A DNA stretch of 30,557 nt from a virus. Positions within the stretch are counted from its first letter, which is position 1. Each line of letters starts with the position of its first letter. Position numbers and translations under genes: made by a program. The notes beneath the pieces are model-generated. The model saw only the letters and a list, made by a program, of their open reading frames with translations. It was not told where the DNA came from and did not search any database. Location: IMG/VR virus record IMGVR_UViG_3300033182_000142, positions 1 to 30,557 of that record; one strand, given 5' to 3'. Shown piece after piece: positions 2,241 through 24,564 of the stretch.

Positions 2241-2286
2241 TTCGCTCATTATCTAGACCTTTAAAAGGCCTGTGGTAAATATCAGT

Positions 2287-8415: not shown

Positions 8416-8837
8416 ATGCTGTAGGCGTTTGGTTTTACTGTACTACAACTGAACGTTATCTCTACTTAATGCGCAACGATCCTAAATACCCTTATCATTG
8501 GGGATTACCTGGTGGCAAATGCGAGTGTGACGAAAGTTTGCTAGATACTATATCTCGCGAGTGCATTGAGGAAATGGGTGCTATGCCAGACTATATTAAA
8601 CTGGTGCCTATTGAGAAGTTTACAGATAATGGAAATCACTTTTCTTATCACACATTCTTGTGCTTGGTAACTGATGAGTTTATGCCAAATCTAAATGATG
8701 AACATTTAGGTTATGCTTGGCTAGACGAAGGTACTATTCCAAAGCCACTACATCCAGGCTTGTGGAACACTATAAACGTTGATGAGATTGTTGCTAAGAT
8801 TGAAACTGCTAAAGACGTTTACTTGCGTAACCAATAA
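8358..8837 (+). CDS. Nudix hydrolase
   Basis: A Nudix-fold pyrophosphohydrolase. The full Nudix box GX5EX7REUXEEXGU is present: G53, E59, R67-E68, E71-E72 and G74 in the frame from ATG 8358. Hydrophobic strands before it (INAVGVWFY, RYLYLMRND, WGLPGG) are typical. The substrate cannot be told; nucleoside diphosphate derivatives are common. The start is uncertain: ATG 8358 overlaps gp15 by 58 bases, whereas recalled homologues begin at the INAVGVWFY segment, which here starts with an ATA codon at 8412. A TTG at 8397 just after AGGTGG (8388-8393) is a third choice. The 3' end overlaps the convergent minus-strand gene by 19 bases. Role: possibly clean-up of damaged or signalling nucleotides during infection. 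Confidence 0.9.
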   Translation: MGSQLRRLVYRWQLVNSDINAVGVWFYCTTTERYLYLMRNDPKYPYHWGLPGGKCECDESLLDTISRECIEEMGAMPDYIKLVPIEKFTDNGNHFSYHTFLCLVTDEFMPNLNDEHLGYAWLDEGTIPKPLHPGLWNTINVDEIVAKIETAKDVYLRNQ

Positions 8838-9511
8838 CCATTTGAAATATCACATTCTGAACGGAACTGGTTAATAGTAATTGTAGATAAGTTCTTGTGC
8901 TTTTTCCATTCTTCAGGGGTGTTGCCTTGGTGTATACAGTGGTAGAACTTTGTGCCTGGGTATGCTGCCATAACATTACCTACACTTGTAATCATAGTAT
9001 CTCTACGCCGTAAACCATCTAGAGTATACTCGTCGTAACCTACTAGATACACTTCTTCGTGTCCATCAAATGCGGCCAGGTATGCTGCTACACCTTCTTC
9101 AGTAGTCTTAACACCATAAGGAATAATAAAGAACTCGCCTGGGTGTTTCAAACACTGTGTGGTGCTGGTGTAGACCATAATCTTTTCAGTTAGGTCGCGC
9201 TTGATTAAGTCGTTGAGCAAGTCTTCGTTAAAAGTAACGTGGAAGTTTGGTTCAAATTGTGTATATAGGCCACCAGTAGCGTATGAGTGGACTGCTAGGC
9301 TGTCAAGCAAGCCTTGACGTCCTGATAGCATATGAAGTGGGAACTGTTGAGAACCTGCGCCGTTGCTTACACAAACAGCACGACCAGAAATTGACTTAAT
9401 CTTTAGAGGATTCTCAACATACTCACGTGTTTGCTCGCGCTTGCCGTTTTTGATAGTGAGGCTGGTTACTACATACTCGCCTTCGTAGTCTGCTCTGTAG
9501 AGTTCTTGCAT
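8819..9511 (-). CDS. Rossmann-like protein, possible glycosyltransferase, after a tail fibre
   Basis: A 230-aa protein whose ATG (9511-9509) overlaps the preceding fibre gene's stop as TAATG. Residues about 44-60 (AVCVSNGAGSQQFPLHML) resemble a nucleotide-sugar binding glycine loop, and EEVYLVGYDEYTLDG near residues 152-166 matches in outline the IYLLGFDLGS segment of the GT42-like protein at 24587-25165. A sialyltransferase/DUF115-type fold is therefore plausible, but the catalytic His seen in the other protein is not clear here. Neighbourhood suggests it modifies or assists the fibre encoded just upstream. It could alternatively be a fibre assembly chaperone. The function is not established; the paralogy to the other protein is my inference from two short motifs. 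Confidence 0.8.
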   Translation of the reverse strand: MQELYRADYEGEYVVTSLTIKNGKREQTREYVENPLKIKSISGRAVCVSNGAGSQQFPLHMLSGRQGLLDSLAVHSYATGGLYTQFEPNFHVTFNEDLLNDLIKRDLTEKIMVYTSTTQCLKHPGEFFIIPYGVKTTEEGVAAYLAAFDGHEEVYLVGYDEYTLDGLRRRDTMITSVGNVMAAYPGTKFYHCIHQGNTPEEWKKHKNLSTITINQFRSECDISNGYWLRK

Positions 9512-11406
9512 TATCTTACACCTACAACAACTTCAATAAGTTCTTCACCTGCTAGTGCTTTGCCCTTGATTGCTTTACCAATAATAGAACCTGCAGGTGG
9601 ATCACGAAGCGGATCGTCCCAGGCAACAGCAACACCAGGTGTATTAGATGCTACCATTAAATCGCCCGGATGTACAATACCTGTAGCACGACAAGGAACA
9701 CGACCTGATAGTGCGATATATACACCGCCATCTAGTTGTTCGTTCATCATAAACGCAGGGTTTGTGGATACTACGCCTGCTACTCTGCGTGTAGCATATT
9801 CGTCTGCTAGTGTAACTTCTTGCTCGCCGCCAAACTGTAGCACTGTGCCTGCGGTGTATTCAGCATCAGGCATATACTTTTCTGCTAAGTCAGCGTATTG
9901 TGCTGATGTTGCTGTACCTGAGAAAATTCCTGCTGTTAGGTTTCCAGATCCATCTCTAAGTGCAATAGTATTTGCAGTTGCACTTGTTGCTGATTGATAT
10001 CCATCAAGCGTATCGGCATCTAAACCAGAACCTGCTCCATCTACCGTTTTGATCAGAGTCAGAATCTCTGATGCTGTCTGATCAGCAGTAGCACCTGATT
10101 CAATGCCGTCTAGTTTAGAACCATCACTTGCTACATCTCTACCATCTACAGTTCCAGATAAAGTTAAGTTTCCATCCTTATCCAACTTCATCTTTTCAGT
10201 GCCGCCTGCAACGCCACTAGTCTTTGATGTGTTACCAAACATCCAACGGTAATAACCACTGGTAGAGTCCGTCAAGCCAAACGATAAACTATTTTCACCG
10301 TTAATGGCTACGTTAGCACTCAAAGCAATATCTGATGTAGTGGTTACAGTGTTTGTACCAACAGATAATGTTTGAACAGTAAGAGTGCCAGACATGGTAT
10401 CGCTGCCAGTAGCAGAAACAAAGTCTGTTGATGCTGCTGTTGCTGCACTGCCTAAGCCTAGGTTAGTTCGTGCTGTTGCTGCGTTGGTTAAGTCTGACAA
10501 GTTGCTTGCCTTAGCAAGTTTTTCGCCAATACTGGTTGTTACTGTTGTTGAGAAGTTAGCGTCATCGCCTAGTGCGGCTGCTAGTTCATTAAGTGTGTCT
10601 AGTGTGCCAGGAGCTGAATCAACTAAGTTTGAAACTGCTGTGCTTACAAACGCTGTAGTAGCAATCTGTGTTGTGTTTGTTCCTGCCGGTGCTGTTGGTG
10701 CAAGAGGAGTGCCAGTTAGTGTTGGACTTGCTGTAGGTGCTTTAGCATTTAATTGAGTTTGTATGTTTGACGTAACACCATCTGTGTAGTTTAGTTCTGC
10801 TGCTGTAGCAGTAACGCTCAGTGTGCTTAATGTAATGTCGCTTGTTAGTGCTACTGTGCCTGTAGTTGTAGGCAGTGTTAGTGTGCCTGTGTTGCTAATG
10901 GTGCTAATAACAGGACTTGTTAGCGTTTTGTTTGTTAGTGTTTGTGTTCCAGTGAGTGTAGTAACTGTTGAGTCAATAGAAAACTCATTGCCCGACAACG
11001 AAAGCCCTGTACCGGCTGTATAACTGCCTCCGGCTGCTGACCAACTTAGGTTGCCTGCACCATCAGTTGACAATACATACCCAGCACTTCCGTCTGAGGT
11101 TGGAAATGTTAGTGTTCCGTTAAGAACAAAACTAGATGCTTTTAATCCTGCTACTTGTAGATCCGAATAAGCAGCAAGTGTTACATTACCTGCGGTAGAA
11201 CCTTGTTCTGTAGAGTTTGCTAATACAAACTCGTCTGCCGATTCGTCCCACAGTAGTACACGATTTTGATCGTCTCCTCGTTCAAAAACAATACCAATAT
11301 CTTTTGTATTAGTACCTTCTGCTCCGTTATTAATAACAATAACTGGGTCGTTGAATGCTGCGGTTGTTGTTGTGACTTGTGCAAGTTTAGGTCTAGTTAA
11401 GCCCAT
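9511..11406 (-). CDS. Tail fibre protein with conserved C-terminal domain
   Basis: A 631-aa fibre starting at ATG 11406-11404, with GGAAGA about 10 bases upstream; a longer frame from TTG 11457 is rejected because it would run through the late promoter. The N-terminal region contains DIGIVFERGDDQNRVLLWDE, a module shared with the 1847-aa fibre. The middle is a beta-structured G/T/S-rich shaft with LTGTQTLTNKTLTSP and a DTLNELAAALGDD module also present in the 839-aa fibre. The last 130 residues begin with AQYADLAEKYMPDA and contain AGVVSTNPAFMMN, ALSGRVPC and IIGKA, a domain repeated at the end of two other fibres. That domain looks like a trimerisation or self-cleaving intramolecular chaperone (Peptidase_G2-like; inference). 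It has its own late promoter. Role: host recognition. Confidence 0.85.
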   Translation of the reverse strand: MGLTRPKLAQVTTTTAAFNDPVIVINNGAEGTNTKDIGIVFERGDDQNRVLLWDESADEFVLANSTEQGSTAGNVTLAAYSDLQVAGLKASSFVLNGTLTFPTSDGSAGYVLSTDGAGNLSWSAAGGSYTAGTGLSLSGNEFSIDSTVTTLTGTQTLTNKTLTSPVISTISNTGTLTLPTTTGTVALTSDITLSTLSVTATAAELNYTDGVTSNIQTQLNAKAPTASPTLTGTPLAPTAPAGTNTTQIATTAFVSTAVSNLVDSAPGTLDTLNELAAALGDDANFSTTVTTSIGEKLAKASNLSDLTNAATARTNLGLGSAATAASTDFVSATGSDTMSGTLTVQTLSVGTNTVTTTSDIALSANVAINGENSLSFGLTDSTSGYYRWMFGNTSKTSGVAGGTEKMKLDKDGNLTLSGTVDGRDVASDGSKLDGIESGATADQTASEILTLIKTVDGAGSGLDADTLDGYQSATSATANTIALRDGSGNLTAGIFSGTATSAQYADLAEKYMPDAEYTAGTVLQFGGEQEVTLADEYATRRVAGVVSTNPAFMMNEQLDGGVYIALSGRVPCRATGIVHPGDLMVASNTPGVAVAWDDPLRDPPAGSIIGKAIKGKALAGEELIEVVVGVR

Positions 11407-11438
11407 ATACAGTAATCTTCCATAAAAGTAATTTACAC

Positions 11439-11446
11439 TATTTATG
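11439..11446 (-). promoter_or_regulatory. Late-type promoter (CATAAATA) for the 631-aa fibre
   Basis: CATAAATA on the minus strand, 7 of 8 to the T4 late consensus, 32 bases before the fibre ATG and just downstream of a terminator. The same octamer is used before the 1847-aa fibre and the 148-aa gene. Confidence 0.7.
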
Positions 11447-11471
11447 CCACTAGACAACCAGAAATTAAAGT

Positions 11472-11502
11472 CAAAAAGAAAGGCGGTTGCCCGCCCTTCT
11501 TT
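11472..11502 (-). terminator. Intrinsic terminator of the 1847-aa fibre gene
   Basis: An 11-bp stem (11476-11486 with 11491-11501) with a TTGC/GCAA loop. On the minus transcript it contains one G-U wobble and is followed by UUUUU. On the plus strand the same position is an A-C mismatch, so the hairpin is tuned for the minus strand. Confidence 0.85.
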
Positions 11503-11526
11503 TATTTAGGTATTATAATCTTGCGA

Positions 11527-14500
11527 TTATAGGCGACCTACTACAACTTCAATGATGCCTTCGCCATCTTCGTTGTTGCCTAGTGCCTTACCAATAACAG
11601 AACCCATTGCAGGATTTTCTTCTGCACGAGCCATACCGTTACCAGCTGATACCATCATGTCGCCTTTGCTAACTGGGCCAACTACCTTACAAGGTACACG
11701 ACCAGTCAATGCAACTGCTACACCGCCTTCCAACTCTGCGTTCATCAAGTGAGCAGGGTTAGTAGAAACGATACCAGCAACCTTTGTATCCATGTCATGG
11801 TTACAAGTAGTTACTTCAGCATCACCGCCAAAGCATACAACAGTACCTGGCTCAATGTCAGCGTCTGCTGTGTACTTCTCTGCCAAGTCCGCGTATTGCG
11901 CAGTTGTTGCAGTACCAGTAATAGTACCTGCTGAGAAGTTACCTGAACCATCGCGGAATACGATAGTTGAAGCAGTGTTAGCAGAAGTAGCGTTTGATGT
12001 TACAGTAAATGTACCACCTTCGCTGCCTACTGAACCTGAGATACCGTTACCAGATGTAGCACCTGCTGCAACATAGTTACCGGTTGTGTCAGTGCCAAGT
12101 GCAACAGAGTTTGCTGCTACACCAGAAGCTACTGTAGCTGTTGCTGCGTTACCAGTAGTATCCTGGTTACCAGCTGTGTTAACACCCGGTAGGTCAATGT
12201 TAGCTGAACCGTTAAACGATACACCACCAATAGTACGAGCAGTTGCTAGTACTGTAGCCGATGCTGCGTTACCGGTAGTATCTTGGTTACCAGTTGTGTT
12301 AACACCTGGTAGGTTGATATTAGCTGAACCGTTAAACGATACACCACCAATAGTACGAGCAGTTGCTAGTGCAGTAGCAGTGTCTGCGTTACCAGTTACA
12401 TCACCAACTAAGTCAGTTGCTAGAGACTTATTCATTGCCCAACGATCTGAAGCTGAAACATAAGTCAATGTAGCTGATGCACCATCAACTGTTAGACCTG
12501 CGCCGTTAGCTGCTGCTGCGTTTGCTGCACCTTGTGCTACTGTAATGTTAAGGTCTGCTACTGTTAGTGTAGTTGAGTTAACTGTAGTAGTTGTGCCGCC
12601 AACTGTTAGGTTACCAGTGATTTGTACATCGTCGTTCAACGCAATGTAGCCAGTGCCATTACCAGTAAGTGTTAGGTTACTGTTAGTAGTCTTGGCAGTA
12701 AATGAATCAGCTGCAATCTGGTTACCAAACGAGATTGCGTTGCCGTCGCTTGATGTGAACGATGCACCTGCTTCAAGTTGTACAGGACCTTTAAGTTGGA
12801 TAATACCAGTACCAGTAGGATCAAGTTCAACGTCGCCAGATCCACTAGTTTGAACACTAATGTTCTGGTTAGTGTCAGCAGATACAACGATTGTACCTGA
12901 GTCGTCTTGTAGTACTTTCTGTCCGTTAACGTACAAAGAGCCCTGCGATACATAAACGTCTCGCCACTGCAATGATGGACTACCTAAGTCAAAACCAGTA
13001 GTACCATCTGAGTCTACAGCTGGCATCAAACCGTCATCTGTAAAGTTAGCGATAGTTACACCATCAATAGTGAACTCAATGTCGCCGTCTGTGCCAGTGT
13101 CAGTAATAGCGATACTAGTATCGTTCTTAGCAATAGCGTCAACAGCAATGTTACCTAGTGTAGTATTACCTGTAACAGTTAGGTTACCTGTAATAGTCAT
13201 GTTACCAGTTGCATCAATAGTGCCGTCGCCGTTAGCGTCAATAGTAGCAGTACCAGTACCGTCGTCAATACCAGTTACACTTGCAGTAGTTGTCATAACA
13301 CGAGCGTCAATAACATCGCCCGAAGCTGGTGCTTCTGTAAATGTTAGTGTAGTGCCTGAAACACCGTAAGCAGTTGTAGGAATCTGTACAACACCGTTGA
13401 TAGATACGATAGTTGTAGCAGTTGTACCACTGTTAGATAGTGTAAACGCTGTAGTTGAACCGTCACCTGAGAACGAGTCAGCAACAACAACAGTAAAGTC
13501 TGCTGTCATGTTACGCCATGCGGTACCATCGTGGTATTCTAGTGCAGTATTGGTAGTGTTAAAACGCATCATACCTTGTGCACCAGTACCTGGACGTTGT
13601 GCTGTAGTACCCGCAGCAATCATGAACGAGTCAGTTGCGTCAATCTTCAACGAAGCATCAGCAGTAGCAGTGCCGCCGCCAATAACAACTGTGTCGGTGC
13701 CTGCGTCTACTGTAAATAGAGTAGAGTTTGTGTCGCCTTCAACAACAAAGTCTACGTCTGCGCCAGCTTCGTTAACACGGATTGCAGAACTTGCTGCGCC
13801 GTCAATTGACAAAATACCAGTGGTATTTGTAATAGAAGAGCTTGTGCCATCATGTACAAGTGTTAAGTCGTTACCAGCACCTAAACGTAAGTTGTCGCTG
13901 TCGCCTAAAGAAACGTTGCTGCTAAACGTAGTTGCACCAGTTACGTCTAGAGTTGAATCTAGCGTAGTAGCACCAGTTACATCAAATGTGCCAGCAATAT
14001 CAACGTTAGTAGCCAAGCCAACTTCAACAGAGTCGCCAGTTACTGTAACAACAGTTTCGTTAGCAACATCGTTGAACGTTAGTGTGTCGCCACCAGAGAT
14101 AGTAGACGAAGTAGTGCCATCAGTGATATCAAAACCAGAGTTAGCAACACCATCAACGTATGCTTTAGTAGCAGCATCTTGGTTAGCAGTTGGATCTGCC
14201 AAGTTAGTCAACTTGTTAGCACCTGCGTCAAACGTAGTTGAAGCGTCAAGTGTTACGTTGTTTAGCGTAGATGCGCCATCAACGTTTAACGTACCAGTTG
14301 TAGAGATGTTACCCGAAGTATCAGCAACAGTGAACGCACCGTCTACATCAATACCACCATCTAGCGAAGCAACGCCAGTTACGTCTAGTGTGCCGCCAAC
14401 AGCAGTGTTGCCGTTTGAAGCAGTAACGTCAAATGCTGTACCAACTTCAAAAGTTGTGCCGTCAAATGTTAGGTCTGAACTGTCTTCTAGCGAACCTGCT

Positions 14501-17070
14501 GTGCCAGCAATGACGATACGGTTGTCTGTCAAGTCACTAACTGTAGCAGAAGCTAGAGTAGTTTCACCTGTAACACCTAGTGTACCGCCAACTGTTACAT
14601 TGTCTGTAACTGTTGCAGCGTCAACGTAGATGTTAGCCCAACGATCAGTGTTGTCACCGATATCATAAGTTGAGTCAGCACCTGGAATCATGTTTGATGA
14701 AATATCAGCAGTGATTGTTACAGTGTCAGTAGCAGCGTCACCAAGTGTAACATTGCCATTGAAAGTAGCAGCACCGTCAACGTTAAGTGTACCTGAAGTA
14801 TCAACGTTACCTGATGAATCGGCAACAGTAAATGCGCCATCTACATCAATACCACCATCTAGACTTGCTAGAGCCGATACATCTAGTGTACCAGTGATAG
14901 TAGTGTTAGCAGCAGCAAGTGTACCAGTTGTAGAAACGTTACCAGTTGAGTCAGCAACAGTGAATGCGCCATCTACATCAATACCGCCATCTAGTGAAGC
15001 TAGACCTGATACGTCAAGTGTGCCAGTGATGCCAGTGTCAGTAAGTGTTGCGTCGCCAAATACAACGTTTGCTGCTGTACCTGAGAATACTTCTGCTGTG
15101 TTAGTAGCATCTACTAATGCTGTAAATACGCCAGCTGAATCATCATAACCAAAGAAACCAACTTTAGCAGCACCGTCGTTGTACAAGAATTCTGTACCGC
15201 GGTCTTTGTTGTCGTCAACTGAATCGTCACCAATTGTGTAAACTGGATCAGAGATAGTAACAGTAGTTGAGTTAACTGTAGTAGTTGTACCTTGAACAGT
15301 CAAGTCACCTGTAACAGTTAAGTCATTGCCGATGGTTACGTCGTTTGGTAGAGAGATAGTAACTTCGTTGTCAGTAACTGCTGTAACGATTTCGTTAGCA
15401 GTACCAGAGAAAGTAAACGTATCTGTACCAACTGTAACAGTATCAGTACCAGTGTCGCCAGCAATTGATAGTGAAGAAGCTGATGCTGCTGTATCGTCTA
15501 CATACTTTTTAGTAGCAGCGTCTTGGTTAACTGTTGGATCAGCAACGTTAGTGATTTTGTTAGCGCCTGCGTCAATTGTGCTTGAAGCATCAATTGTTAC
15601 GTTTGCCATTGTAGTATCACCATCTACATTCAAGTCACCTGAAGTAGAAACGTTACCTGAAGTATCAGCAACGGTAAACGCACCGTCCATATCAATACCA
15701 CCGTCTAGCGAAGCAAGACCAGTTACGTTCAATGCTGCGCCAAAGTCTGCTTGACCAGTTACGCTTGCTGTGCCGTCAACATCTAGGTTGCCGCCCATGT
15801 TCAAGTTTTCTGCTAGACCTAAGCCACCATCAATAATAACAGCACCAGTGGTGTTGCTTGTTGAAGTAGTTGTGTCGTTGAAGTTAGCTGCGCCATCTAC
15901 ATCTAGAGTTGAGTCAAGTGTAGTTGCGCTAGTTACATCAAATGTACCTGCGATATCAACGTTGCTTGGCAAGCCAATTGTTAGCGTGTCAGTAGCAGAA
16001 ACAGCTACTTCTACTTCGTTAGTAGTACCAGCAACTGTTAGTGTATCTGAAGCAGATATGTCAATGGTTTGTGAAGTAACACCGTCTGATAGTACCCAGC
16101 CTGCTTGTAGTGCTGTATCAATGTATGACTTAGTAGCAGCGTCTTGAGCAGATGTAGGATCTGCCAAGTTAGTCAACTTGTTAGCACCAGCGTCAAATGT
16201 TGATGATGCGTCAAGTGTTACACTGTTAAGTGTTGAAGCACCGTCTACGTTCAATGTACCGGTTGTGCTAATGTTACCTGATGTGTCAGCAACAGTAAAT
16301 GCGCCATCTACATCAATACCACCGTCTAGTGAAGCTAGACCAGAAGCAGTAATAGCAGCAACAGTAGTTGCGCCAGTTACACCTAGTGTACCGCCAACTG
16401 TTACGTTGCTTGAGAAAGCACCAGTTGTTGCACCAGATAGTGCGCCTGATGAGATTGAAGCAGTGCCGTCAGTTAGTGTAGTACCTGTAATAGTACCGTC
16501 TGTAGCGATAGTAGCGTTTGCGTTAACGTCAATGCCGCCATCTAATGAAGATAGTCCAGTAACGTCAAGTGTACCACTTGCTGTGATGTTTACAGCAGAG
16601 ATATCATCTGATAGTGTTACGGCGCCAGTTACACCTAGTGTACCGCCAATAGTTACGTTGTCATCAAACTCACCGCCGCCAGCGTGTAGGTTAGCGTAGT
16701 CAGTAACTGTAACAGTAGTAGACGAGTCTGAGTCTGAAGTAAATGCTACAATAAATTCGTCTGCTGATTCGTCCCATACAAACGCAATGTTAGTGTCATC
16801 ACCACGCTCACCAATGAAACCTAAGTCTAATGCGCCTGCGCCAGATTGGTCTGGTGCAAACACAAGCATAGGATCGTCTACAGAAACAGTAGTAGAGTTA
16901 ACAGTAGTTGACGTACCGTTAACCGTTAAGTTACCTGAAACTGTTAGATTTGATCCGTATGTTAAGTTATCTTCCAAAAGTCCGGCTGTTACCGATTTTG
17001 CAACTGTTTTAGCAGATGCAACAATGGTAGAGTCCGTAATTTGGTTATTCTTTATACGAGTAATTGCCAT
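11527..17070 (-). CDS. Giant repetitive tail fibre protein (1847 aa)
   Basis: The largest gene in the window. ATG 17070-17068 follows AGGGGAA. The protein is almost entirely G, T, A, S, D, V and N with periodic beta-strand repeats. There are six SLDGGID units, five of them continuing DGAFTVAD, three copies of a DAGANK(L/I)TN..DPT..QDAATK unit that looks helical, three TTVNSTT modules, and two 40-residue TARTIGGVSFNGSANI units near the end. A module at about two thirds (TAQRPGTGAQGMMRFNTTN) recurs in the 839-aa and 140-aa proteins. The last 130 residues are the shared YADLAEKY domain. No membrane segment is visible. Such proteins are long trimeric fibres that reach the host surface. The gene forms its own transcription unit: late promoter, 5' hairpin and strong terminator. 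Confidence 0.88.
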   Translation of the reverse strand: MAITRIKNNQITDSTIVASAKTVAKSVTAGLLEDNLTYGSNLTVSGNLTVNGTSTTVNSTTVSVDDPMLVFAPDQSGAGALDLGFIGERGDDTNIAFVWDESADEFIVAFTSDSDSSTTVTVTDYANLHAGGGEFDDNVTIGGTLGVTGAVTLSDDISAVNITASGTLDVTGLSSLDGGIDVNANATIATDGTITGTTLTDGTASISSGALSGATTGAFSSNVTVGGTLGVTGATTVAAITASGLASLDGGIDVDGAFTVADTSGNISTTGTLNVDGASTLNSVTLDASSTFDAGANKLTNLADPTSAQDAATKSYIDTALQAGWVLSDGVTSQTIDISASDTLTVAGTTNEVEVAVSATDTLTIGLPSNVDIAGTFDVTSATTLDSTLDVDGAANFNDTTTSTSNTTGAVIIDGGLGLAENLNMGGNLDVDGTASVTGQADFGAALNVTGLASLDGGIDMDGAFTVADTSGNVSTSGDLNVDGDTTMANVTIDASSTIDAGANKITNVADPTVNQDAATKKYVDDTAASASSLSIAGDTGTDTVTVGTDTFTFSGTANEIVTAVTDNEVTISLPNDVTIGNDLTVTGDLTVQGTTTTVNSTTVTISDPVYTIGDDSVDDNKDRGTEFLYNDGAAKVGFFGYDDSAGVFTALVDATNTAEVFSGTAANVVFGDATLTDTGITGTLDVSGLASLDGGIDVDGAFTVADSTGNVSTTGTLAAANTTITGTLDVSALASLDGGIDVDGAFTVADSSGNVDTSGTLNVDGAATFNGNVTLGDAATDTVTITADISSNMIPGADSTYDIGDNTDRWANIYVDAATVTDNVTVGGTLGVTGETTLASATVSDLTDNRIVIAGTAGSLEDSSDLTFDGTTFEVGTAFDVTASNGNTAVGGTLDVTGVASLDGGIDVDGAFTVADTSGNISTTGTLNVDGASTLNNVTLDASTTFDAGANKLTNLADPTANQDAATKAYVDGVANSGFDITDGTTSSTISGGDTLTFNDVANETVVTVTGDSVEVGLATNVDIAGTFDVTGATTLDSTLDVTGATTFSSNVSLGDSDNLRLGAGNDLTLVHDGTSSSITNTTGILSIDGAASSAIRVNEAGADVDFVVEGDTNSTLFTVDAGTDTVVIGGGTATADASLKIDATDSFMIAAGTTAQRPGTGAQGMMRFNTTNTALEYHDGTAWRNMTADFTVVVADSFSGDGSTTAFTLSNSGTTATTIVSINGVVQIPTTAYGVSGTTLTFTEAPASGDVIDARVMTTTASVTGIDDGTGTATIDANGDGTIDATGNMTITGNLTVTGNTTLGNIAVDAIAKNDTSIAITDTGTDGDIEFTIDGVTIANFTDDGLMPAVDSDGTTGFDLGSPSLQWRDVYVSQGSLYVNGQKVLQDDSGTIVVSADTNQNISVQTSGSGDVELDPTGTGIIQLKGPVQLEAGASFTSSDGNAISFGNQIAADSFTAKTTNSNLTLTGNGTGYIALNDDVQITGNLTVGGTTTTVNSTTLTVADLNITVAQGAANAAAANGAGLTVDGASATLTYVSASDRWAMNKSLATDLVGDVTGNADTATALATARTIGGVSFNGSANINLPGVNTTGNQDTTGNAASATVLATARTIGGVSFNGSANIDLPGVNTAGNQDTTGNAATATVASGVAANSVALGTDTTGNYVAAGATSGNGISGSVGSEGGTFTVTSNATSANTASTIVFRDGSGNFSAGTITGTATTAQYADLAEKYTADADIEPGTVVCFGGDAEVTTCNHDMDTKVAGIVSTNPAHLMNAELEGGVAVALTGRVPCKVVGPVSKGDMMVSAGNGMARAEENPAMGSVIGKALGNNEDGEGIIEVVVGRL
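12131..12370. repeat. Two-copy 120-bp tandem repeat inside the fibre gene
   Basis: 12131-12250 and 12251-12370 are adjacent copies with period exactly 120 bp (40 codons); the segment 12210-12250 is identical or nearly so to 12330-12370. They encode the two TARTIGGVSFNGSANI units. An in-frame period allows copy-number change without loss of frame. Confidence 0.85.
14281..16560. repeat. Dispersed degenerate repeats encoding SLDGGID units
   Basis: Related blocks encoding SLDGGID occur near 14340, 14850, 14980, 15690, 16310 and 16535. Five are followed, in the coding direction, by DGAFTVAD. Spacing is irregular, and whole sections (for example 14150-14370 and 16120-16340) repeat as larger units with the DAGANK element. 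Confidence 0.8.
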
Positions 17071-17120
17071 GTTAGAATATTCCCCTATTCAAAAATATTT
17101 GCAAATATTATTTTATGGAT

Positions 17121-17139
17121 AGAAGGCATCCTGCCTTCT
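17121..17139 (-). other. 5'-leader hairpin of the giant fibre mRNA
   Basis: A perfect 8-bp inverted repeat AGAAGGCA/TGCCTTCT with a 3-base loop. No U-tract follows on either strand, so it is not a normal terminator. It begins 8 bases past the CATAAATA octamer on the minus strand, so it would lie at the extreme 5' end of the transcript and could protect it from decay. Confidence 0.7.
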
Positions 17140-17146
17140 ACAAGCA

Positions 17147-17154
17147 TATTTATG
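17147..17154 (-). promoter_or_regulatory. Late-type promoter (CATAAATA) for the giant fibre
   Basis: CATAAATA, 7 of 8 to the late consensus, 76 bases before the ATG at 17070. Two further octamer-like sequences lie upstream on the same strand: CTAAATAG at 17166-17173 and TATAAATT at 17197-17204 (the latter overlapping the end of the 839-aa gene), so tandem late starts are possible. Confidence 0.7.
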
Positions 17155-17199
17155 ACGTAGGGGGTCTATTTAGCGGCTGCGATAATAATTTTAAAAAAT

Positions 17200-19719
17200 T
17201 TATAAAATAACTGCTTCTACAATACCAGTGCCGGATTCTAATGCGATAGCAAAAGACCAACCTGTTCGTGTGTTGTCTACGGTTGCAACGCCTGGTGTTT
17301 GCGACGGTGCTAGTCTGTCACCTTTATTTACCTGCCCTTCAACTCGAACTGGCACTCGTCCTTTAAGTGCAATAGTAGCACCGTCAAGGCTTTTGTTCAT
17401 CAAATAAGCAGGATTTTCTGAAATAACACCTAGTACTGAATGTGCTGTTGCAGTAGTTGCTGCTGTTACTTCCGCATCGCCGCCTACTGCCATTACTGTA
17501 CCTGTAGGGTAGGCTTTGTCAGAGCGATAACGCTCTGCTAAGTCAGCGTATTCTGCTGAACTTGCTGTACCATCAATGTTTGGTACAGTTAATGTATCCG
17601 ATAAAGGATTGTAAGTGATGCCAGCATCAGTATATACAGATTCTGCCAAAGCCGAACCGTTATTTGAATCAACAAACGTTAGGTAATACTCGTCATCAGA
17701 TTCTGCCGAAACTGTTTTAACTGTATTTGCGGCTGACGCTGTACCGCTAATATTCGGAACAGTTAGTGTGTTTGTTGCCGGATTGTAATATAGTGCCGAA
17801 TCTGTATAAATTATTTCAGGGGTTGCTGAAGTATTATGCGAGTCAACAAATGTAATAGGGTGATTAGCGTTAGCTGTTGCTTGTCGTGTATCAACTCTGT
17901 CAGCTGTAGCAGCATTACCCGAACAAGCATTAGCATTAGCAACATTGTTAACAGTAACAACATCGGTAGTGCTATCGCCGCGAGCAAGAGTAATAGTAGC
18001 ATCGCTAACTGTTAGAGCATTTGCTGCTGTGCTTAGTGCTTGGTTAGAAGTTTTAGCAACTTTTGTGCCAATATCTGTTGCTACTGTGGTAGCAAAGTTA
18101 GGATCATCGCCTAGTGCTGCTGCTAGTTCATTTAGTGTGTCTAGCGTAGAAGGAGCACTTGCTACTAGATTCGACACGGCTGTATCAGCATAACTTTCGT
18201 ACGCACTAGTAATAGCAGTTTCGCGTGTGTCTGTGTATGCATTTGCTGTTGTTACAGCATCTGTTTCTGCACTTGCTAGAGCGGTGCTTAAACCGTCAAC
18301 ATTAGCAATAGTATGGTTATGGCTATCATCTACTACTGCCGCAGTTAAAGTTACGTTAGCACTACCATCAATACTTACATTGCCTGTTAAGTCGCCTGCT
18401 AGTGTAATAGTGCGAGCAGTTGTCCATTTTGCAGCATCTTCTGAAGTGACATTTAATGCTGCTTCTGTTGAGCCATCACTTTGGTAAACACCAAGTGTAT
18501 TATCGCCATTATCTTTAATCTGCAAACTACCTAGATAGATAGTTGAGCCTGCTAAGTGTAGTTCATTCCACTTGTTTGAAGCAGAGCCTAAATCGTATGT
18601 TTCATTTGCACCCGGAATAACATCGCCTGTTACTGTAACTGTAGTGTCAGACACACTAACCACATCAGTGCCGTTCATGTTAATTGCTGCGTTAGTGTCA
18701 ATGACACTAATACTATTAGTAGAATCTGGACTGGTAATACCTGTTACAACACGCGAAGCAGCAACATAACGAATAACAACTTCGTCTGACGCTAAAGGTG
18801 CTTCTGCAAAAGTAAGCTGGTCACCGCTAACTGTATAGCCCACGCCCGGATTTTGAACAATACCGCCAGTAACAACGATGATAGCATCAGCAGTAGTTGC
18901 TTGTTGTAATGTAAATGTTACTGTAGAATTATCGCCTGTAAGCACTTCAGAATCATGAGTAGATGCTGCACCTCCGGAACCTACTGTTTCCCAAGTTGAG
19001 CCTGTCCATATCTCAACTTCGCCTGATGTTGAATTAAAACGTAATTCACCTTGTGTAGGCGTACCAGAGCGTTGTGCAGTTGTGCCTACTGGAATAACTA
19101 AACCGGTAGTAGCATCCATTACAATAGGATCACCAGCACCCACTGCCATTTCGTTGTTGGTGAATACAAAGTCGCCTAGATCGCCGCCAACACCAAAGTC
19201 ACCTGTATAACGTGCACCAGAGATGTAAACCGATTTACCAGTAAACGAAACACCGTTAGGTAAGTTTGTGCCAATAAAGTGTAACACACCGCTCTGATAA
19301 TCAAAGAACCATTCGTCGTCGTTGTTAGAACCTGTAGCAAATACTTGATCGCCTGTAGTAGCGTTAGCAGCATCGCTAGAATCATGTATGTAAACTTTTA
19401 CTTGATATGTTGAACCAAACTCAGGAGATATCCAATCTGTTAGGTTAGTTTTCCACGAACGGTTTGCTGTTGATGTAATGTCAGCAGCACATTCAACAGG
19501 TGCACTTGTAGGATAAACAGTAACAACACCCGCTGAACTTCCGGGAATAACGCCTGGAATACTACCCGAATCTTTCATTACACGGTCTCCACGCATCTGT
19601 AGTGGCGAAGGTATAGATTCGTTTGGTGCTTTCTTTTGTGTATTAGTATCTGTTTTAGTTAGAGCGTAGCCTAACTTCTTCCACAAATAGTCAACTTTTT
19701 GGTTATCTGAAATAGCCAT
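17200..19719 (-). CDS. Tail fibre / appendage protein (839 aa)
   Basis: Last gene of the fibre operon. ATG 19719-19717 overlaps the stop of the preceding gene as TAATG; AGGAG is 10 bases upstream. The N-terminus MAISDNQKVDYLWKKLGYAL, followed by KAPNESIPSPL, is a module that I recall at the start of many marine-phage structural proteins and may be the virion attachment part. Next comes an ordered domain to about residue 175. The module VPVGTTAQRSGTPTQGELRF (about residues 210-330) is shared with the 1847- and 140-aa proteins. A shaft follows with DTLNELAAALGDD, also in the 631-aa fibre. The protein ends in the common domain, here as AEYADLAERYRSD, with the Cys of GRVPC replaced by Val. Host binding is inferred. 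Confidence 0.85.
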   Translation of the reverse strand: MAISDNQKVDYLWKKLGYALTKTDTNTQKKAPNESIPSPLQMRGDRVMKDSGSIPGVIPGSSAGVVTVYPTSAPVECAADITSTANRSWKTNLTDWISPEFGSTYQVKVYIHDSSDAANATTGDQVFATGSNNDDEWFFDYQSGVLHFIGTNLPNGVSFTGKSVYISGARYTGDFGVGGDLGDFVFTNNEMAVGAGDPIVMDATTGLVIPVGTTAQRSGTPTQGELRFNSTSGEVEIWTGSTWETVGSGGAASTHDSEVLTGDNSTVTFTLQQATTADAIIVVTGGIVQNPGVGYTVSGDQLTFAEAPLASDEVVIRYVAASRVVTGITSPDSTNSISVIDTNAAINMNGTDVVSVSDTTVTVTGDVIPGANETYDLGSASNKWNELHLAGSTIYLGSLQIKDNGDNTLGVYQSDGSTEAALNVTSEDAAKWTTARTITLAGDLTGNVSIDGSANVTLTAAVVDDSHNHTIANVDGLSTALASAETDAVTTANAYTDTRETAITSAYESYADTAVSNLVASAPSTLDTLNELAAALGDDPNFATTVATDIGTKVAKTSNQALSTAANALTVSDATITLARGDSTTDVVTVNNVANANACSGNAATADRVDTRQATANANHPITFVDSHNTSATPEIIYTDSALYYNPATNTLTVPNISGTASAANTVKTVSAESDDEYYLTFVDSNNGSALAESVYTDAGITYNPLSDTLTVPNIDGTASSAEYADLAERYRSDKAYPTGTVMAVGGDAEVTAATTATAHSVLGVISENPAYLMNKSLDGATIALKGRVPVRVEGQVNKGDRLAPSQTPGVATVDNTRTGWSFAIALESGTGIVEAVIL

Positions 19720-22700
19720 TAACTAGCAACTCCTACGCTTAATGCGGAAATACTTTCGCCGCTTGCTAATGCTATACGCACTAGTACTACGTTGCCTGTA
19801 GCGTTTGACATGTTTTCAGATCCTAAAGTTAATGTGTACGAACTATTTAAGCTAGTTCCTGTTGGAACAATATCTGCCGCAGTAAACGCACAGCCATTAC
19901 TGCCGTTACCGCCATTGCCTGTGTCGGCACCCGGTACACCTGCACCTGCGTATTGAACAGTTGAGTCTAGCCAACCGTTTAGAGTTGATGCACTGTCAAT
20001 CGCTGTTCCTGGAGCTGCAATCCACAAACCCGTAATACCAGTGCTAGAAGTAATAGCAACGTCAAAGTTAGCAACTACCTGTCTGCGGAAAGCAAACGTA
20101 AAGTATTGTGTGCCTGTGTCACCTGAACGATCTGGACCTGCTGGCAAGTTTGTGCTGTGATCTGTTGTATCGTGCTGTAGCAAGCCTTGTAGTACGCTTG
20201 CTTCTTGCGATCCTGACATACCAGGATCTGATGTGCTTGTATAAGGATCATTTGTGTAATAGTTAGTAGCACCATTAAACGATGGCGTATCTGTGGTTGC
20301 AGCAATAAAGTCTGCAATACGCAAACCATCGTCTGTGTAAACACCGTTACCCAAACTGTCACTAACTGGAATAATAAACTCGTTAATACCTGCAGGAGTT
20401 TCTGTTTGAACACGAATAACTTGATCTAGTTCTGCATAACTGCCTGTGCCGTTAACGTTCTTCATTCTAAACTTGATTTTTTCAGCAGCGGTTACACTAG
20501 AACTTGTTAGTGTAATAGTTTGATCGCCAATAGCATATGGTGTGCTTGATGTTTTACCAGTGTTAGCATTAGGAATGCCACCTGTTAAGTACGAGCTTGC
20601 GCCATCTAGGTCAGCATAAGTTTTGTATTGTGTGCTTAGTACGCTGTCGGTTGTTCCGTCAACGTTAGTACCGCCTGTGATTTCAAACGGTGTAGTTGTG
20701 TCTTGATATGCTTGACCAATCCAATCGTAAACTTCGACACCGCTCAATGTTAGTGTTGAGCCGCTGGCGTAGTACGGAATGCCTGAAATATAGTTGTATG
20801 TTACACTATCTTCTGTTAGTGTAGCACTGGTTAAATCAACTGTTGGAGTGTTAGTAACATCGTCACGCACAATAGCAACATAGTTGGTGTTGCCTGTTGC
20901 GTCGTGTTCAATACGCTCGTCGTTAACACCTACTGAGTAAGCAGTAATTGGTGCTGTGATCTTGGCATCAAATGTCTGGTAGAAGCCAGTTGGGTAAGTT
21001 GCTGCTGATATAGTATCATTGGCATCTCTGTTGTCACTAACTACCAAATATGTAAATGTGCCATTCTCATTTAGTGTGGTTGAGAATGTTTTAGAACCTT
21101 GTGTTGTTCCATTGATAACTGCTGACGCTGTGCCACTCAAACCGTTGTAGGCGTTAGCAATAACGCTTGTGTCAATAGTGCCAGATGCATAACGACGTGC
21201 TGTAGTTGTGTTTATGCTGTCGCCTGCGCTTAGTGGGCTTGTGTCCGAATTGTCAGTGAAGCCAGCAGCAAGTTTAGGACTTGTGCCTTGTGCTACATCA
21301 GCTAGAGTAATAGTTTTTGAACTAACACCTGCTGGTGCTGCTGGAACACTATTAAGTTGGAATACAATAGTTTCAGAATCTGTTTGCGCAGTAATGTCTG
21401 GTGTGCCGTTAGCAGTAAATGTTAGAGTATGATTTCCAATAGTTTCACCGCTGTAATCGTGATCAATAGTTGCGCCAATAGTACCAGCAGTTGATCCATC
21501 TTCAGAAAGCGTGTCATTTGTGCTTGTATCTCCCCAATCGTAAACATAATCGTCACCGTTTTGTGATGTGTTTGTAACACGAACTAGCGCACGGTTGTTA
21601 CCATTATAGTCTGTGCCATCATAAATGTCGTAGATGTTGTCGCCTGTTTTGTCGCTAACTGTGATTGCTGTGCCAGCAACATTAGCGCGAACATCTGGCT
21701 CAACGTGAACTGTAAAGTCTGATGAGATAAATGGCGAACTGCTGTGATTAGAAATAACACGCAAGTTACCCGTGTAGTCAACTGCTGTGCCGCTTGCTTG
21801 GTTAGCACTGCTTAACGCATAGGTGTGGCTAATAGTGCCACTTGTGTCACCACTTGCACCAGAACCTACATTAACTGTAGTTGTATTACCATCGCCCCAA
21901 GTGTACAAGTATTGAATGCCGTAGGTAGCATACGAACCAATAGTTGACTCTGTGTTGTTTGTAAACGTAACAGGTAAACCGCTAGTGCCTTCTTCGTTGA
22001 TACCAGTTGTTGTTGATAACGCAACAGTTGGTGTATGCGTGTCATAAATCTTGAATGCGTTGTTGTCATCTGTTGGAATACTAGCAGGCAATGCCGTAGT
22101 GTGCGAGTCAAGTGTAAGCGTTACAGTCCTTGTTTGTTCTTCTTCAGTTGAAGTGGTAAATGTATGACTAATACGACCACCGCCAACGCCGCCAGGGTTG
22201 CTATCGCTAGATACGACAGTGTCTGACGAGCCATCGCCCCAATCCCATGTATACTGGACTGTAGCGCCTGATGTATTTGTTGTAGTGTTTTCAAAGTAAA
22301 TTGTGTCACCGTCGTCCCATTGTGTGATAGGCGATCCGCCTGTTGCTGCTGCGTATGCCGAGAAGCTAACAACAGGATCTGCTGTGTAAAGTGTTATGTA
22401 ATCTTCGCGGGTCTTACTGATACTACTGCCTGCGCCTGATCCATTATGATTGTATGCTGTTACTGTAACATCAAACGGTGATCCAGTATTAGTAGCATAA
22501 GTGTGTGTTGGTGTTGAGTCTGTTGTACCAGTTGTGGTGTTGCCGTCGCCCCAGTTAATGGTGTAGCGAGTTGGGTTACCATCTGCTGTGATAGTTAGCG
22601 TAGTAACCATACCAGCGCCACCAGTTAAGTTGTCGCCAGTAAAATCAATGTTAGCAACAGCAGTATCATTGATCATATTTGTTGCTAGTTCGTTTAAGTC

Positions 22701-23126
22701 ATCAATGGCATCAGTTACATAAGTTGAAGTAGTCCAATCGTTAATCGCGCCTTCAGGGTATAGCGATGTATCAGTTGGTGTGCCTAATGTTACAGACATA
22801 CCAGTAGTACCAGTTGATACTAAAGTGTCAATTGATGACCAAGTTAATCCGCCTGCACCATCGGTGGTTAATACATAATCAGCACTGCCGCCAGAGATTG
22901 TAATATCTCCAACTGCACCTAAGTCTAGGTCGCCCGAAGTAGAACGTATTTGGCTACCGTTGATGGTTATGTTATCAACTTGTAATGATTGTGTAGGGGT
23001 TGCTGTGTTAACACCAATGCGGCTGTTAGCAACGTCTACATATAATAAGTTTGTTTCAATGGACAGATCGTTATCTCTTGCGAGATTATCTGATAACATA
23101 TTGCCGTCAATTTTGTTAATAGCCAT
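19719..23126 (-). CDS. Large adhesin-like tail protein with PKD-type repeats (1135 aa)
   Basis: ATG 23126-23124 starts 3 bases after the preceding stop. The N-terminus (MAINKIDGNMLSDNLARDND, then NSRIGVNTATPTQSLQVDN) looks like a fibre attachment module. Four WGDG-type signatures lie at about residues 192, 296, 410 and 531 (the last as WGDT). Each is followed by an H-T-(Y/F) or HDY motif 15-25 residues later, the pattern of PKD/Ig-like domains spanning roughly residues 165-580. The remaining half is beta-rich, with a VYDWIGQAYQD segment. It lacks the YADLAEKY C-terminal domain of the other large fibres and instead ends in an NVVLVRIALASGES strand. PKD domains usually mediate carbohydrate or protein contact. 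Likely a tail spike, baseplate extension or adhesin; the exact place in the virion is unknown. Confidence 0.84.
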   Translation of the reverse strand: MAINKIDGNMLSDNLARDNDLSIETNLLYVDVANSRIGVNTATPTQSLQVDNITINGSQIRSTSGDLDLGAVGDITISGGSADYVLTTDGAGGLTWSSIDTLVSTGTTGMSVTLGTPTDTSLYPEGAINDWTTSTYVTDAIDDLNELATNMINDTAVANIDFTGDNLTGGAGMVTTLTITADGNPTRYTINWGDGNTTTGTTDSTPTHTYATNTGSPFDVTVTAYNHNGSGAGSSISKTREDYITLYTADPVVSFSAYAAATGGSPITQWDDGDTIYFENTTTNTSGATVQYTWDWGDGSSDTVVSSDSNPGGVGGGRISHTFTTSTEEEQTRTVTLTLDSHTTALPASIPTDDNNAFKIYDTHTPTVALSTTTGINEEGTSGLPVTFTNNTESTIGSYATYGIQYLYTWGDGNTTTVNVGSGASGDTSGTISHTYALSSANQASGTAVDYTGNLRVISNHSSSPFISSDFTVHVEPDVRANVAGTAITVSDKTGDNIYDIYDGTDYNGNNRALVRVTNTSQNGDDYVYDWGDTSTNDTLSEDGSTAGTIGATIDHDYSGETIGNHTLTFTANGTPDITAQTDSETIVFQLNSVPAAPAGVSSKTITLADVAQGTSPKLAAGFTDNSDTSPLSAGDSINTTTARRYASGTIDTSVIANAYNGLSGTASAVINGTTQGSKTFSTTLNENGTFTYLVVSDNRDANDTISAATYPTGFYQTFDAKITAPITAYSVGVNDERIEHDATGNTNYVAIVRDDVTNTPTVDLTSATLTEDSVTYNYISGIPYYASGSTLTLSGVEVYDWIGQAYQDTTTPFEITGGTNVDGTTDSVLSTQYKTYADLDGASSYLTGGIPNANTGKTSSTPYAIGDQTITLTSSSVTAAEKIKFRMKNVNGTGSYAELDQVIRVQTETPAGINEFIIPVSDSLGNGVYTDDGLRIADFIAATTDTPSFNGATNYYTNDPYTSTSDPGMSGSQEASVLQGLLQHDTTDHSTNLPAGPDRSGDTGTQYFTFAFRRQVVANFDVAITSSTGITGLWIAAPGTAIDSASTLNGWLDSTVQYAGAGVPGADTGNGGNGSNGCAFTAADIVPTGTSLNSSYTLTLGSENMSNATGNVVLVRIALASGESISALSVGVAS

Positions 23127-23129
23127 CTA

Positions 23130-23552
23130 TTATACCTGTGTTGAAGCTACGCCGTGAATCACGGTAATCTGCACACCGGTTGGCGGTGCACTTGTAAACG
23201 TAATATCATAACTTCCATCTACTGTGTAGTTTGTTGTTGGTGTTTGGAAAATACCATTCACAAATACCAAAATGTTTTCTGCGTAATCTACTGCGTAAGT
23301 CATTGATCCAAATACAGTTGTTGATGCATCGCCTGTAAACGAATCTACAGTGATATCAACCATGCCTTCTAGTGCTAGACTATCCCACGAACTTCCATTA
23401 TACACTTCTAAATTACCTGATGTTGTGTTAAAGCGTGTTGCTCCTACACTAGGTGCAGCAGGACGTTGTGCTGCTGTGCCAACAGGCAAAACAACAGACT
23501 CAACTGTTCCTTGGTTTAACAATGAGTTTTTGAGTGTATAACCTTGGGCCAT
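23130..23552 (-). CDS. Small fibre-module protein (140 aa)
   Basis: A stand-alone copy of a module found inside two large fibres. LPVGTAAQRPAAPSVGATRF, then TSGNLEVYNGSSWDSL, corresponds to TAQRPGTGAQGMMRFNTTN..LEYHDGTAWRNM in the 1847-aa protein and to the equivalent part of the 839-aa protein. The second half (SFTGDASTTVF, ILVFVNGIFQTP, FTSAPPTGVQI) also aligns with the domain that follows in both large proteins. The start is ATG 23552, one base after the preceding stop. It is in the late fibre operon. It may be a fibre collar or connector subunit that packs like the internal module; this is inference from the shared sequence. Confidence 0.82.
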   Translation of the reverse strand: MAQGYTLKNSLLNQGTVESVVLPVGTAAQRPAAPSVGATRFNTTSGNLEVYNGSSWDSLALEGMVDITVDSFTGDASTTVFGSMTYAVDYAENILVFVNGIFQTPTTNYTVDGSYDITFTSAPPTGVQITVIHGVASTQV

Positions 23553-23553
23553 A

Positions 23554-23868
23554 TTAGATGCTCGTGTAACTTACTACTGCGTTAAACGTAGTTGCTGCGC
23601 TGCCTGTAGCAACCAGTGTGTCGCCGTTTTCTAGCAATAACTTTTCGCCGCCTGCATACAACTGGTGTGTATCTGCTGCGTTGATTGAGTAGTCTTTGAT
23701 TACAATGTTGTCATTGCCTGCCGAGTCACCTGATGGTACCAAGTGAATAGTAAGTGTCGCTGAACTACCAGAGTAGTTTGTAAATGAGGCAAATGTAATT
23801 GCAGAATTACCGCTCGAGGTATAAACTGTTGTTGCTGTATTGCCTACTAGGTTTGTTTCTAATGCCAT
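23554..23868 (-). CDS. Small beta-rich structural protein (104 aa)
   Basis: A 104-aa protein with the pattern of a jelly-roll or beta-sandwich: NLVGNTATTVYTSSGNSAIT, FTNYSGSSATLTIHLVPSG, NIVIKDYSINAADTHQLYA, then KLLLENGDTLVATGSAATTF. No Cys, no membrane segment. The start ATG 23868 has AAGGA 8 bases upstream that overlaps the intergenic gap from the 228-aa gene. Similar small proteins appear among marine phage virion genes (recalled, without a defined job). Position within a tight five-gene fibre operon suggests a tail or fibre accessory subunit. Confidence 0.8.
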   Translation of the reverse strand: MALETNLVGNTATTVYTSSGNSAITFASFTNYSGSSATLTIHLVPSGDSAGNDNIVIKDYSINAADTHQLYAGGEKLLLENGDTLVATGSAATTFNAVVSYTSI

Positions 23869-23877
23869 TTTTAATCC

Positions 23878-24564
23878 TTAGAAAATAATGCTGTAGACGA
23901 TTGCTTTTGCTTTTGAAACCAATTCGTCATTTGTTGATGTAGTTCTGAAATATACGCCAGAACCGCCTGAACCTTCTGTTTTGTGGTAAAGTATGTTGTA
24001 GCCTGCTTCCGCTGTTGGATCACCTGTGCGAAGTTTTAACTTTAGGTCGGCGTCAATATATACATCACCACCTGTGTCTGGAGCAATGACAATATCACCG
24101 CCGCCTACAGAAACAATTGACTGCCCGTTAACATCTAGATCACCGCCAAGTTGCGGAGTAGTGTCTTGTACTACATCTGTTAGTGCTGTGCCGCCACCGC
24201 CTGAAGTGAAGCCAATATCGCTCCATATATTACCGTCAACCGATAACTGCCAAGCGTCTGTGGTTTCGTTAAAGCGTATACCTGCGCCGTATCCAGATGT
24301 GCCATCGTTTAACGTACCTCTGTCAACTACTACGGCTGCTTCGCCAAGCGTGACACCTGCTTCGGTTTCACCTTCATTGAGCATGATTGTGTTGTTGCTG
24401 ATGTTTAGGTTTGTTTCACTTACAACAGCAGAATCACCTGTTACAACTAAGTCGCCTTTTACACGAAATACTTCCGTAGTCACTGTTACTTCATTGGCAG
24501 TGTTGCCATCTTCATCAATTGTCTCAATGTTATAGTCGCCGAGAATTCGATCAGTAGTACTCAT
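23878..24564 (-). CDS. Fibre-related structural protein, first of fibre operon (228 aa)
   Basis: A 228-aa protein beginning at ATG 24564 with AAGG upstream. Early segments (RVKGDLVVTGDSAVVSETNL, NISNNTIMLNEGE) echo the LTV.GNLTV..T.TTVNSTTV modules of the giant fibre; GIRFNETTDAWQLSVDG resembles the RFNTTN..L module. A QLGGDLDVNGQSIVS segment near residue 140 is a short beta turn repeat. The C-terminus (about residues 185-228, ILYHKTEGSGGSGVYFRTTS) looks like a compact tip or attachment domain. As first gene behind the perfect late promoter, it may be the most abundant member of the operon, perhaps the part that links fibres to the baseplate. This is inference from order and modules. Confidence 0.8.
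   Translation of the reverse strand: MSTTDRILGDYNIETIDEDGNTANEVTVTTEVFRVKGDLVVTGDSAVVSETNLNISNNTIMLNEGETEAGVTLGEAAVVVDRGTLNDGTSGYGAGIRFNETTDAWQLSVDGNIWSDIGFTSGGGGTALTDVVQDTTPQLGGDLDVNGQSIVSVGGGDIVIAPDTGGDVYIDADLKLKLRTGDPTAEAGYNILYHKTEGSGGSGVYFRTTSTNDELVSKAKAIVYSIIF

Follow-up and report, generated by a model that had tools for sequence, protein, structure and literature searches.

The C-terminal domain of the phi29 pre-neck appendage protein gp12 (3suc, 3gqh) is an auto-chaperone, a role restated in a study of Dpo31 from the marine podovirus Carin-1 (PMC13317679). In that study, the Dpo31 D4 domain (PDB 28nb) was described as a trimeric auto-chaperone with a DYAE motif and with phi29 gp12 as its best DALI match; D4 was systematically absent from the expressed proteins, and most fragments without D4 were insoluble (PMC13317679). 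Chaperones of the Peptidase_S74 type, such as those of the K1F endosialidase and the T5 L-shaped fibre, are also C-terminal and trimeric and are removed after folding (PMC10579305). For the fibritin of T4-like phages, the abstract of the corresponding study reports an ancient exchange of C-terminal modules with vertical divergence afterwards (PMC3797505). Here, we analysed a window of 30,557 bases (the whole IMG/VR record IMGVR_UViG_3300033182_000142), a fragment of an uncultured jumbo T4-like phage, in which three fibre genes encoding proteins of 631, 1847 and 839 amino acids (aa) end in one common domain with the motif YADLAEKY, referred to below as the YAD domain. This domain is best read as an auto-chaperone of the phi29 gp12 type, and its three copies have been inherited gene position by gene position over a long time.

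The YAD domain has the fold, the D-x-A-E motif and the C-terminal position of the phi29 gp12 domain, but it is shorter (about 120 vs. 163 residues), the Asp is preceded by Ala where phi29 has Ser, and the domain belongs to fibre genes of jumbo T4-like phages, with three copies per locus. Dpo31 D4 is the same kind of domain and was weakly matched by the profile built from the YAD copies (E 0.08); unlike the YAD fibres, Dpo31 is an enzymatic podovirus tailspike with no three-fibre locus. Peptidase_S74 chaperones perform the same job with another fold, an alpha-helical body and beta-hairpin tentacles as opposed to the all-beta YAD model. Fibritin resembles the YAD fibres in its shared C-terminal modules and old exchange but is a collar fibre encoded by one gene, and the abstract mentions neither a system of slots nor an alternation between one and two open reading frames (ORFs).

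The fibre locus is located on the minus strand, as are all its features named below, and is flanked by gp23 and a 230-aa gene. The 839-aa gene (17200-19719) occupies what we call slot 1, the 1847-aa gene (11527-17070) slot 2, and the 631-aa gene (9511-11406) slot 3; the length of 631 aa holds for translation starting at the ATG at 11406, whereas a TTG (11457) would give the longest ORF, of 648 aa. An earlier note on this DNA had proposed that the three fibres share the terminal domain and several internal modules, and protein alignments confirmed this at the places indicated. The YAD domain (17203-17607 in slot 1, where the motif reads YADLAERY, 11530-11949 in slot 2 and 9514-9945 in slot 3) is 55% identical over 160 aa between the 631-aa and 1847-aa proteins (E 8e-45) and 52% identical over 107 aa between the 631-aa and 839-aa proteins (E 2e-26). 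The ERGDD..WDESADEF sequence is common to the 631-aa and 1847-aa proteins (E 3e-12) and lies in their N-terminal heads: in slot 2 (MAITRIKNNQITD..., 16741-17070) it starts with GERGDD (about 16753-16812), and in slot 3 (MGLTRPKL..., 11173-11406; 45% to the slot-2 head) with FERGDD (about 11227-11286). The DTLNELAAALGDD module links the 631-aa and 839-aa genes over 131 nt at 77% (10511-10641 vs. 18053-18183), the best stretch being 104 nt at 82%, and the TAQR..RFN..W module recurs at E ~4e-19 in the 1847-aa gene (13318-13644), the 839-aa gene (18748-19122) and a 140-aa gene (23130-23552). One more module, overlooked in the note, links the 631-aa gene (11035-11105) over 71 nt at 76% to the gene of a 1135-aa fibre or structural protein (22833-22903 within 19719-23126), which matches phrog_8578 (E 1e-65) and weakly, under the gathering score, PKD_4 (E 9e-4). 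When the partners were shuffled in 30-residue blocks, which kept the local composition, no between-gene score exceeded 28.9 bits over 50 trials, vs. 60-163 bits for those named modules that blastp detected, thus excluding similarity by composition alone. The paralogy and the modular build of the fibres are right.

The closest DNA repeats of the locus are found within the 1847-aa gene (a 120-nt tandem repeat at 93%), none between genes being closer. Tandem and dispersed copies are located at 12130-12396, 14153-14399 and 14785-15030 and comprise, besides the 120-nt unit, families of 132 nt and 247 nt, which suggests that the shaft of this protein changes its length by slippage or unequal crossing-over.

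The Pfam family Peptidase_G2 (PF11962, “IMC autoproteolytic cleavage domain”) matched 85 of 110 diverse YAD copies at E<=0.1 (best E 2.6e-9), the window copies of slot 1 (E 6.3e-7) and slot 2 (E 3.8e-6) being above the gathering score. The AlphaFold2 (AF2) model of the slot-2 copy (predicted local distance difference test, pLDDT, 92) is all-beta, and its top match in VIA-align was the pre-mature phi29 gp12 (3suc; Z 14.9, 2.1 Å, 111 residues), followed by the gp12 C-terminal fragment 3gqh_A (Z 14.7), with model residues 31-148 placed on gp12 residues 692-854. Asp31 of the model, the invariant Asp of YADLAEKY, superposes on Asp692 of phi29 gp12, where the sequence reads S691-D692-F-A-E and where the protein is cleaved between residues 691 and 692. 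All 110 YAD copies retain the D, A and E of D-x-A-E. Putative cleavage in the window would thus precede Asp726 in slot 1 (codon 17542-17544), Asp1728 in slot 2 (codon 11887-11889) and Asp523 of the 648-aa numbering in slot 3 (codon 9889-9891).

The YAD domain ends no more than 6 aa from the stop in all 275 ORFs examined, never occurs twice per ORF, and was found attached to no fewer than five different, unrelated N-terminal heads; hundreds of phage contigs carry it on unrelated fibres. The PA5oct protein with this domain, gp359, is annotated as detected by tandem mass spectrometry (MS/MS). A search of the PDB with the three window copies alone gave nothing credible, and a search with the 110-copy profile only marginal matches, Dpo31 D4 among them; NCBIfam contained no meaningful family for this domain. 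Peptidase_S74 was absent among the matches listed for the 110 copies, and the all-beta model lacks the alpha-helical body of such chaperones. Taken together, the YAD domain is best read as a phi29 gp12-type auto-chaperone which, by analogy with gp12, would trimerise and cleave itself.

Several observations weigh against this reading. The slot-3 copy by itself has no Pfam match, and the Peptidase_G2 match spans about 60 of the 228 profile positions. The residue preceding the Asp is Ala in 109 of 110 copies and Gly in one, vs. Ser in phi29; although Ser before the cleaved bond is a feature of phi29 gp12 which no source consulted makes a family requirement, its replacement may mean that cleavage of YAD is absent or follows a different course. 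The fold is shared (Z 8-13) by the cement proteins of phage capsids, which do not act as cleaved chaperones, and the slot-1 copy matches Phage_cement under the cut-off of 27 (E 2e-4, 21.9 bits). Finally, short YAD ORFs exist (in the locus L091, about 180 aa counted from the first Met), for which an intramolecular role is less obvious. The trimeric cement or decoration fold, the Ala at the P1 position and the stand-alone ORFs would all suit a domain that stays uncleaved and permanently forms a trimeric cap or tip on the mature fibre. We regard this as unlikely, if still deserving attention, since the phi29 gp12 C-terminus and Peptidase_G2 remain the best fold and family matches, the D-x-A-E at the cleavage site is invariant and the position is strictly C-terminal. 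The location of YAD at the distal end of the polypeptide could also indicate a receptor-binding tip, conserved because the three fibres recognise one receptor. To this we give next to no credence: YAD occurs on unrelated fibres, the sequence preceding it varies, and the candidate binding domains (Laminin_G_3 and Gly_rich_2) sit in the replaceable part described below. Because YAD is best read as an auto-chaperone, its sharing is uninformative on host range.

The other widely shared part, the TAQR module, stands alone in the 140-aa gene together with an adaptor-like beta domain. A receptor-binding role for this shared module was considered and set aside, the C-terminal half of the 140-aa protein matching the T7 gp17 N-terminal and T4 gp10-type adaptor domains with moderate Z of 7.5-8.8. 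In this half, the 140-aa protein and its two internal copies in the fibres resemble a structural rather than a receptor-binding part. As to host range, what is shared is a folding domain and an adaptor-like domain, with no receptor-binding tips, and the parts that vary between near-identical phages lie between.

To follow the history of the modules we relied on IMG/VR contigs, because the locus, searched as DNA against cultured phages, matched gp23 of Vibrio phage 2.275.O alone. A close relative, contig IMGVR_UViG_3300022200_000019 (our loci L226, L147 and L066), is syntenic with the window over the locus: gp23 is 91% identical, the 192-aa gene 61%, the 228-aa gene 53%, the 104-aa gene 55%, the 140-aa gene 54%, the 1135-aa gene 48-52%; the values for the 230-aa gene, for gp15 and for the gene preceding gp15 are 57-76%. 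The slot-1 protein matches two adjoining genes of the relative, R1266 by aa 1-555 (55%) and R966 by aa 611-839 (57%); its 206-aa head (19102-19719; phrog_9417 E 2.8e-33) is 73% identical to that of R1266 and its YAD domain 66% to that of R966. Likewise, aa 1-122 of the slot-3 protein are orthologous to R307 (55%, the head alone 70%) and its end to the adjoining gene R735 (64%). The slot-2 protein corresponds to a single gene, R2386, at both ends (77% in the head) and over the TAQR region. The order 228-104-140-1135-slot 1-slot 2-slot 3-230, whole or in part, recurs in dozens of contigs.

In a maximum-likelihood tree of 55 copies of the C-terminal domain, the slot-2 and slot-3 copies formed separate sets, and 7 changes of slot label were needed vs. 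26 with shuffled labels; the detected heads and the order of the genes served to set the labels, in part manually. Across about 30 related phages, the copies grouped largely by gene position and not by genome; those of the window paired with R2386 (slot 2), R735 (slot 3) and R966/L227 (slot 1). An approximately unbiased (AU) test rejected a single clade of the three window copies (p 8e-6) as well as of the slot-2 and slot-3 copies (p 0.002). The TAQR module behaved similarly: in a tree of 53 copies every stand-alone 140-aa copy fell into a single clade (98/99), and one clade of the window copies was rejected (p 2e-4). Against strict slot-wise inheritance, the slot-1 copies of L067 and L238 sit among slot-3 copies, indicating transfer between slots in other lineages. 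The results allow us to conclude that the YAD copies of the window separated long ago and have been inherited slot by slot.

What has changed recently became evident from three near-identical phages (L091, L092 and L097), whose DNA flanking slot 3 on either side is 84-95% identical. Between about codon 74-99 of the head and about 25 aa before YADLAE, the sequence of L092 is largely unrelated to that of L091 and L097, and its size varies from about 0.8 kb in a single ORF (L092) to about 2.3 kb (L097) and about 5.3 kb (L091). The longer stretches consist of separate ORFs, including, in both phages, Laminin_G_3 lectin-like proteins (E 3e-30 and 1e-54) and a Gly-rich protein in L091 (Gly_rich_2, E 3e-14). 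With conserved flanks around an unrelated stretch, the head and the YAD domain are therefore the conserved ends of a replaceable cassette. The L091 stretch (11320-16574 of that locus) is a multi-ORF cassette within a fibre slot, with a Gly-rich adhesin-like protein, a triple Laminin_G_3 protein and the short YAD protein.

A second kind of recent change concerns the genes themselves, as each of the single window genes of slots 1 and 3 is represented by two adjacent genes in the relative. On the tree, the state of one or two ORFs changed at least three times in slot 3 and at least three times in slot 2. The separate YAD-carrying genes R966, R735 and L140 start with Mtd_N (PF18454; E 3.5e-10, 5.1e-10 and 1.6e-7, respectively), the N-terminal domain of the Bordetella phage major tropism determinant; unlike in Bordetella Mtd, Mtd_N is here followed by a long fibre that ends in YAD. 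No outgroup carrying the slot-1 head together with the YAD domain was found, and the change in slot 1 may have been either a fusion on the side of the window or a fission on that of the relative. Thus, recent change consists in replacement of the middle and in splitting and joining of the ORFs for head and YAD, whereas recombination through the conserved ends and an effect of middle replacement on host range are what we infer from this.

The fused genes of the window could in principle be artefacts of metagenomic assembly, as the slot-1 fusion (839 aa) is known from the window alone. This is highly improbable, given that the ORFs are intact and in frame, without a stop, that slot-3 fusions recur in L067, L068 and L092, and that the split state of slot 1 is seen in the relative and again in a second, independent contig (L227). 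The earlier note took the shared modules as direct evidence that duplication and exchange had occurred inside a single locus, probably driving host-range change. As a rival explanation, the three genes would have traded modules recently. The modules are real, and a few moves between slots did take place in other phages, but the AU tests rejected a single origin of the window copies, largely refuting the claim for YAD and TAQR. Synonymous sites point the same way, being near saturation between modules inside the window: the proportion of synonymous differences (pS) was 0.56-0.76 between genes within the window and 0.47-0.69 between slot-matched genes of the window and the relative. Within-window pS equals or exceeds that between the phages, so the modules already resembled one another before the two phages diverged, and the comparison of synonymous divergence suggested in the note revealed no between-gene module clearly younger than this split. 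Copies within the genome were closer than slot-matched copies, as gene conversion would leave them, for neither YAD nor TAQR. The sole borderline case is the DTLNELAAALGDD (DTLNE) module, which is 68% identical in aa between the two window genes (synonymous substitutions per site, dS, about 1.0), while either window copy is only 55-57% identical to that of the relative. The region holding this module matches 628 phage records from many hosts, 351 of them mycobacteriophages, so that a source outside the locus is equally likely. We therefore consider recent exchange within the locus quite improbable, and the slot-wise trees, the AU rejections and the near-saturated synonymous sites leave the claim of direct evidence unsupported. 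The shared modules are an old family resemblance, not recent swaps within the locus.

Most probably, the locus comprises three old paralogous slots, each fibre consisting of a slot-specific N-terminal head, a replaceable middle and a C-terminal phi29-type YAD chaperone, with recent change by cassette replacement and by fission or fusion. Three YAD copies would meet at the fibre end and aid the folding of the shaft as a trimer, after which YAD would probably be cut off before the invariant Asp of Y-A-D-L-A-E. As this domain would be a general folding tool, its presence on all three fibres of a single phage is understandable. The middle between the head and YAD would be replaced wholesale, the conserved ends probably serving as homologous flanks; fission or fusion would place the head and YAD on one ORF or on two neighbours. 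More speculatively, and we would not press the point, in the phages with two ORFs the YAD protein might cap and fold, in trans, a fibre whose own, separate gene lies upstream, so that multi-ORF adhesin cassettes could be inserted with assembly left intact. If so, an auto-chaperone can leave its fibre gene.

The surroundings of the locus agree with a T4-like phage. The window gp23 (Pfam E 3e-97) is closest, among cultured phages, to those of the jumbo phages Vibrio phage 2.275.O (68%), PA5oct (66%) and Phosso (66%), and a gp15-type tail sheath stabiliser is encoded at 7036-8415 (plus strand, E 7e-31); further T4-type structural genes were named from sequence and gene order only. Between gp15, which it overlaps by about 58 bases, and the fibre locus there is a NUDIX hydrolase ORF (8358-8837, plus strand, Pfam E 1.2e-14), 70% conserved in the relative. 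A 3'-5' exoribonuclease of the Rv2179c type (2762-3286, minus strand, Pfam E 4e-34) lies amid the structural genes, near a possible HNH-like ORF (2272-2628, plus strand) with a weak match (E 0.047). The 192-aa gene (24587-25165) and the 230-aa gene (8819-9511) bracket the fibre locus and appear to be distant relatives; their direct alignment is weak (E 0.011), and a single ORF matches both in L091, L097, L142 and others. The 192-aa protein weakly matches alpha-2,3-sialyltransferases (phrog_4603 E 8e-4; Pfam CST-I 0.026), and both genes may serve to modify fibres or surface sugars. Orthologues of the 228-aa gene (23878-24564) in L067 and L074 also match the slot-2 fibre head (39-40%), so this gene may represent another paralogue of the head, in a shorter form.

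That phage fibres are modular has long been known. New in the present locus are the recognition of a fibre end, widespread but unnamed, as a probable auto-chaperone of the phi29 type with three copies per locus, and the arrangement of head, cassette and chaperone with repeated splitting and joining of genes. In the cultured jumbo phages PA5oct, Atu_ph07 and Phosso and in Campylobacter phages, proteins with YAD have so far been annotated as hypothetical or just as a tail fibre or structural protein. This domain of hundreds of environmental contigs now becomes a probable self-removing folding aid, and the search for host-range determinants turns away from the shared ends and towards the replaceable middle. 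In addition, the set of near-identical phages lets the limits of fibre exchange be read directly and provides a testable rule: the head and the chaperone are fixed, and the middle is free.

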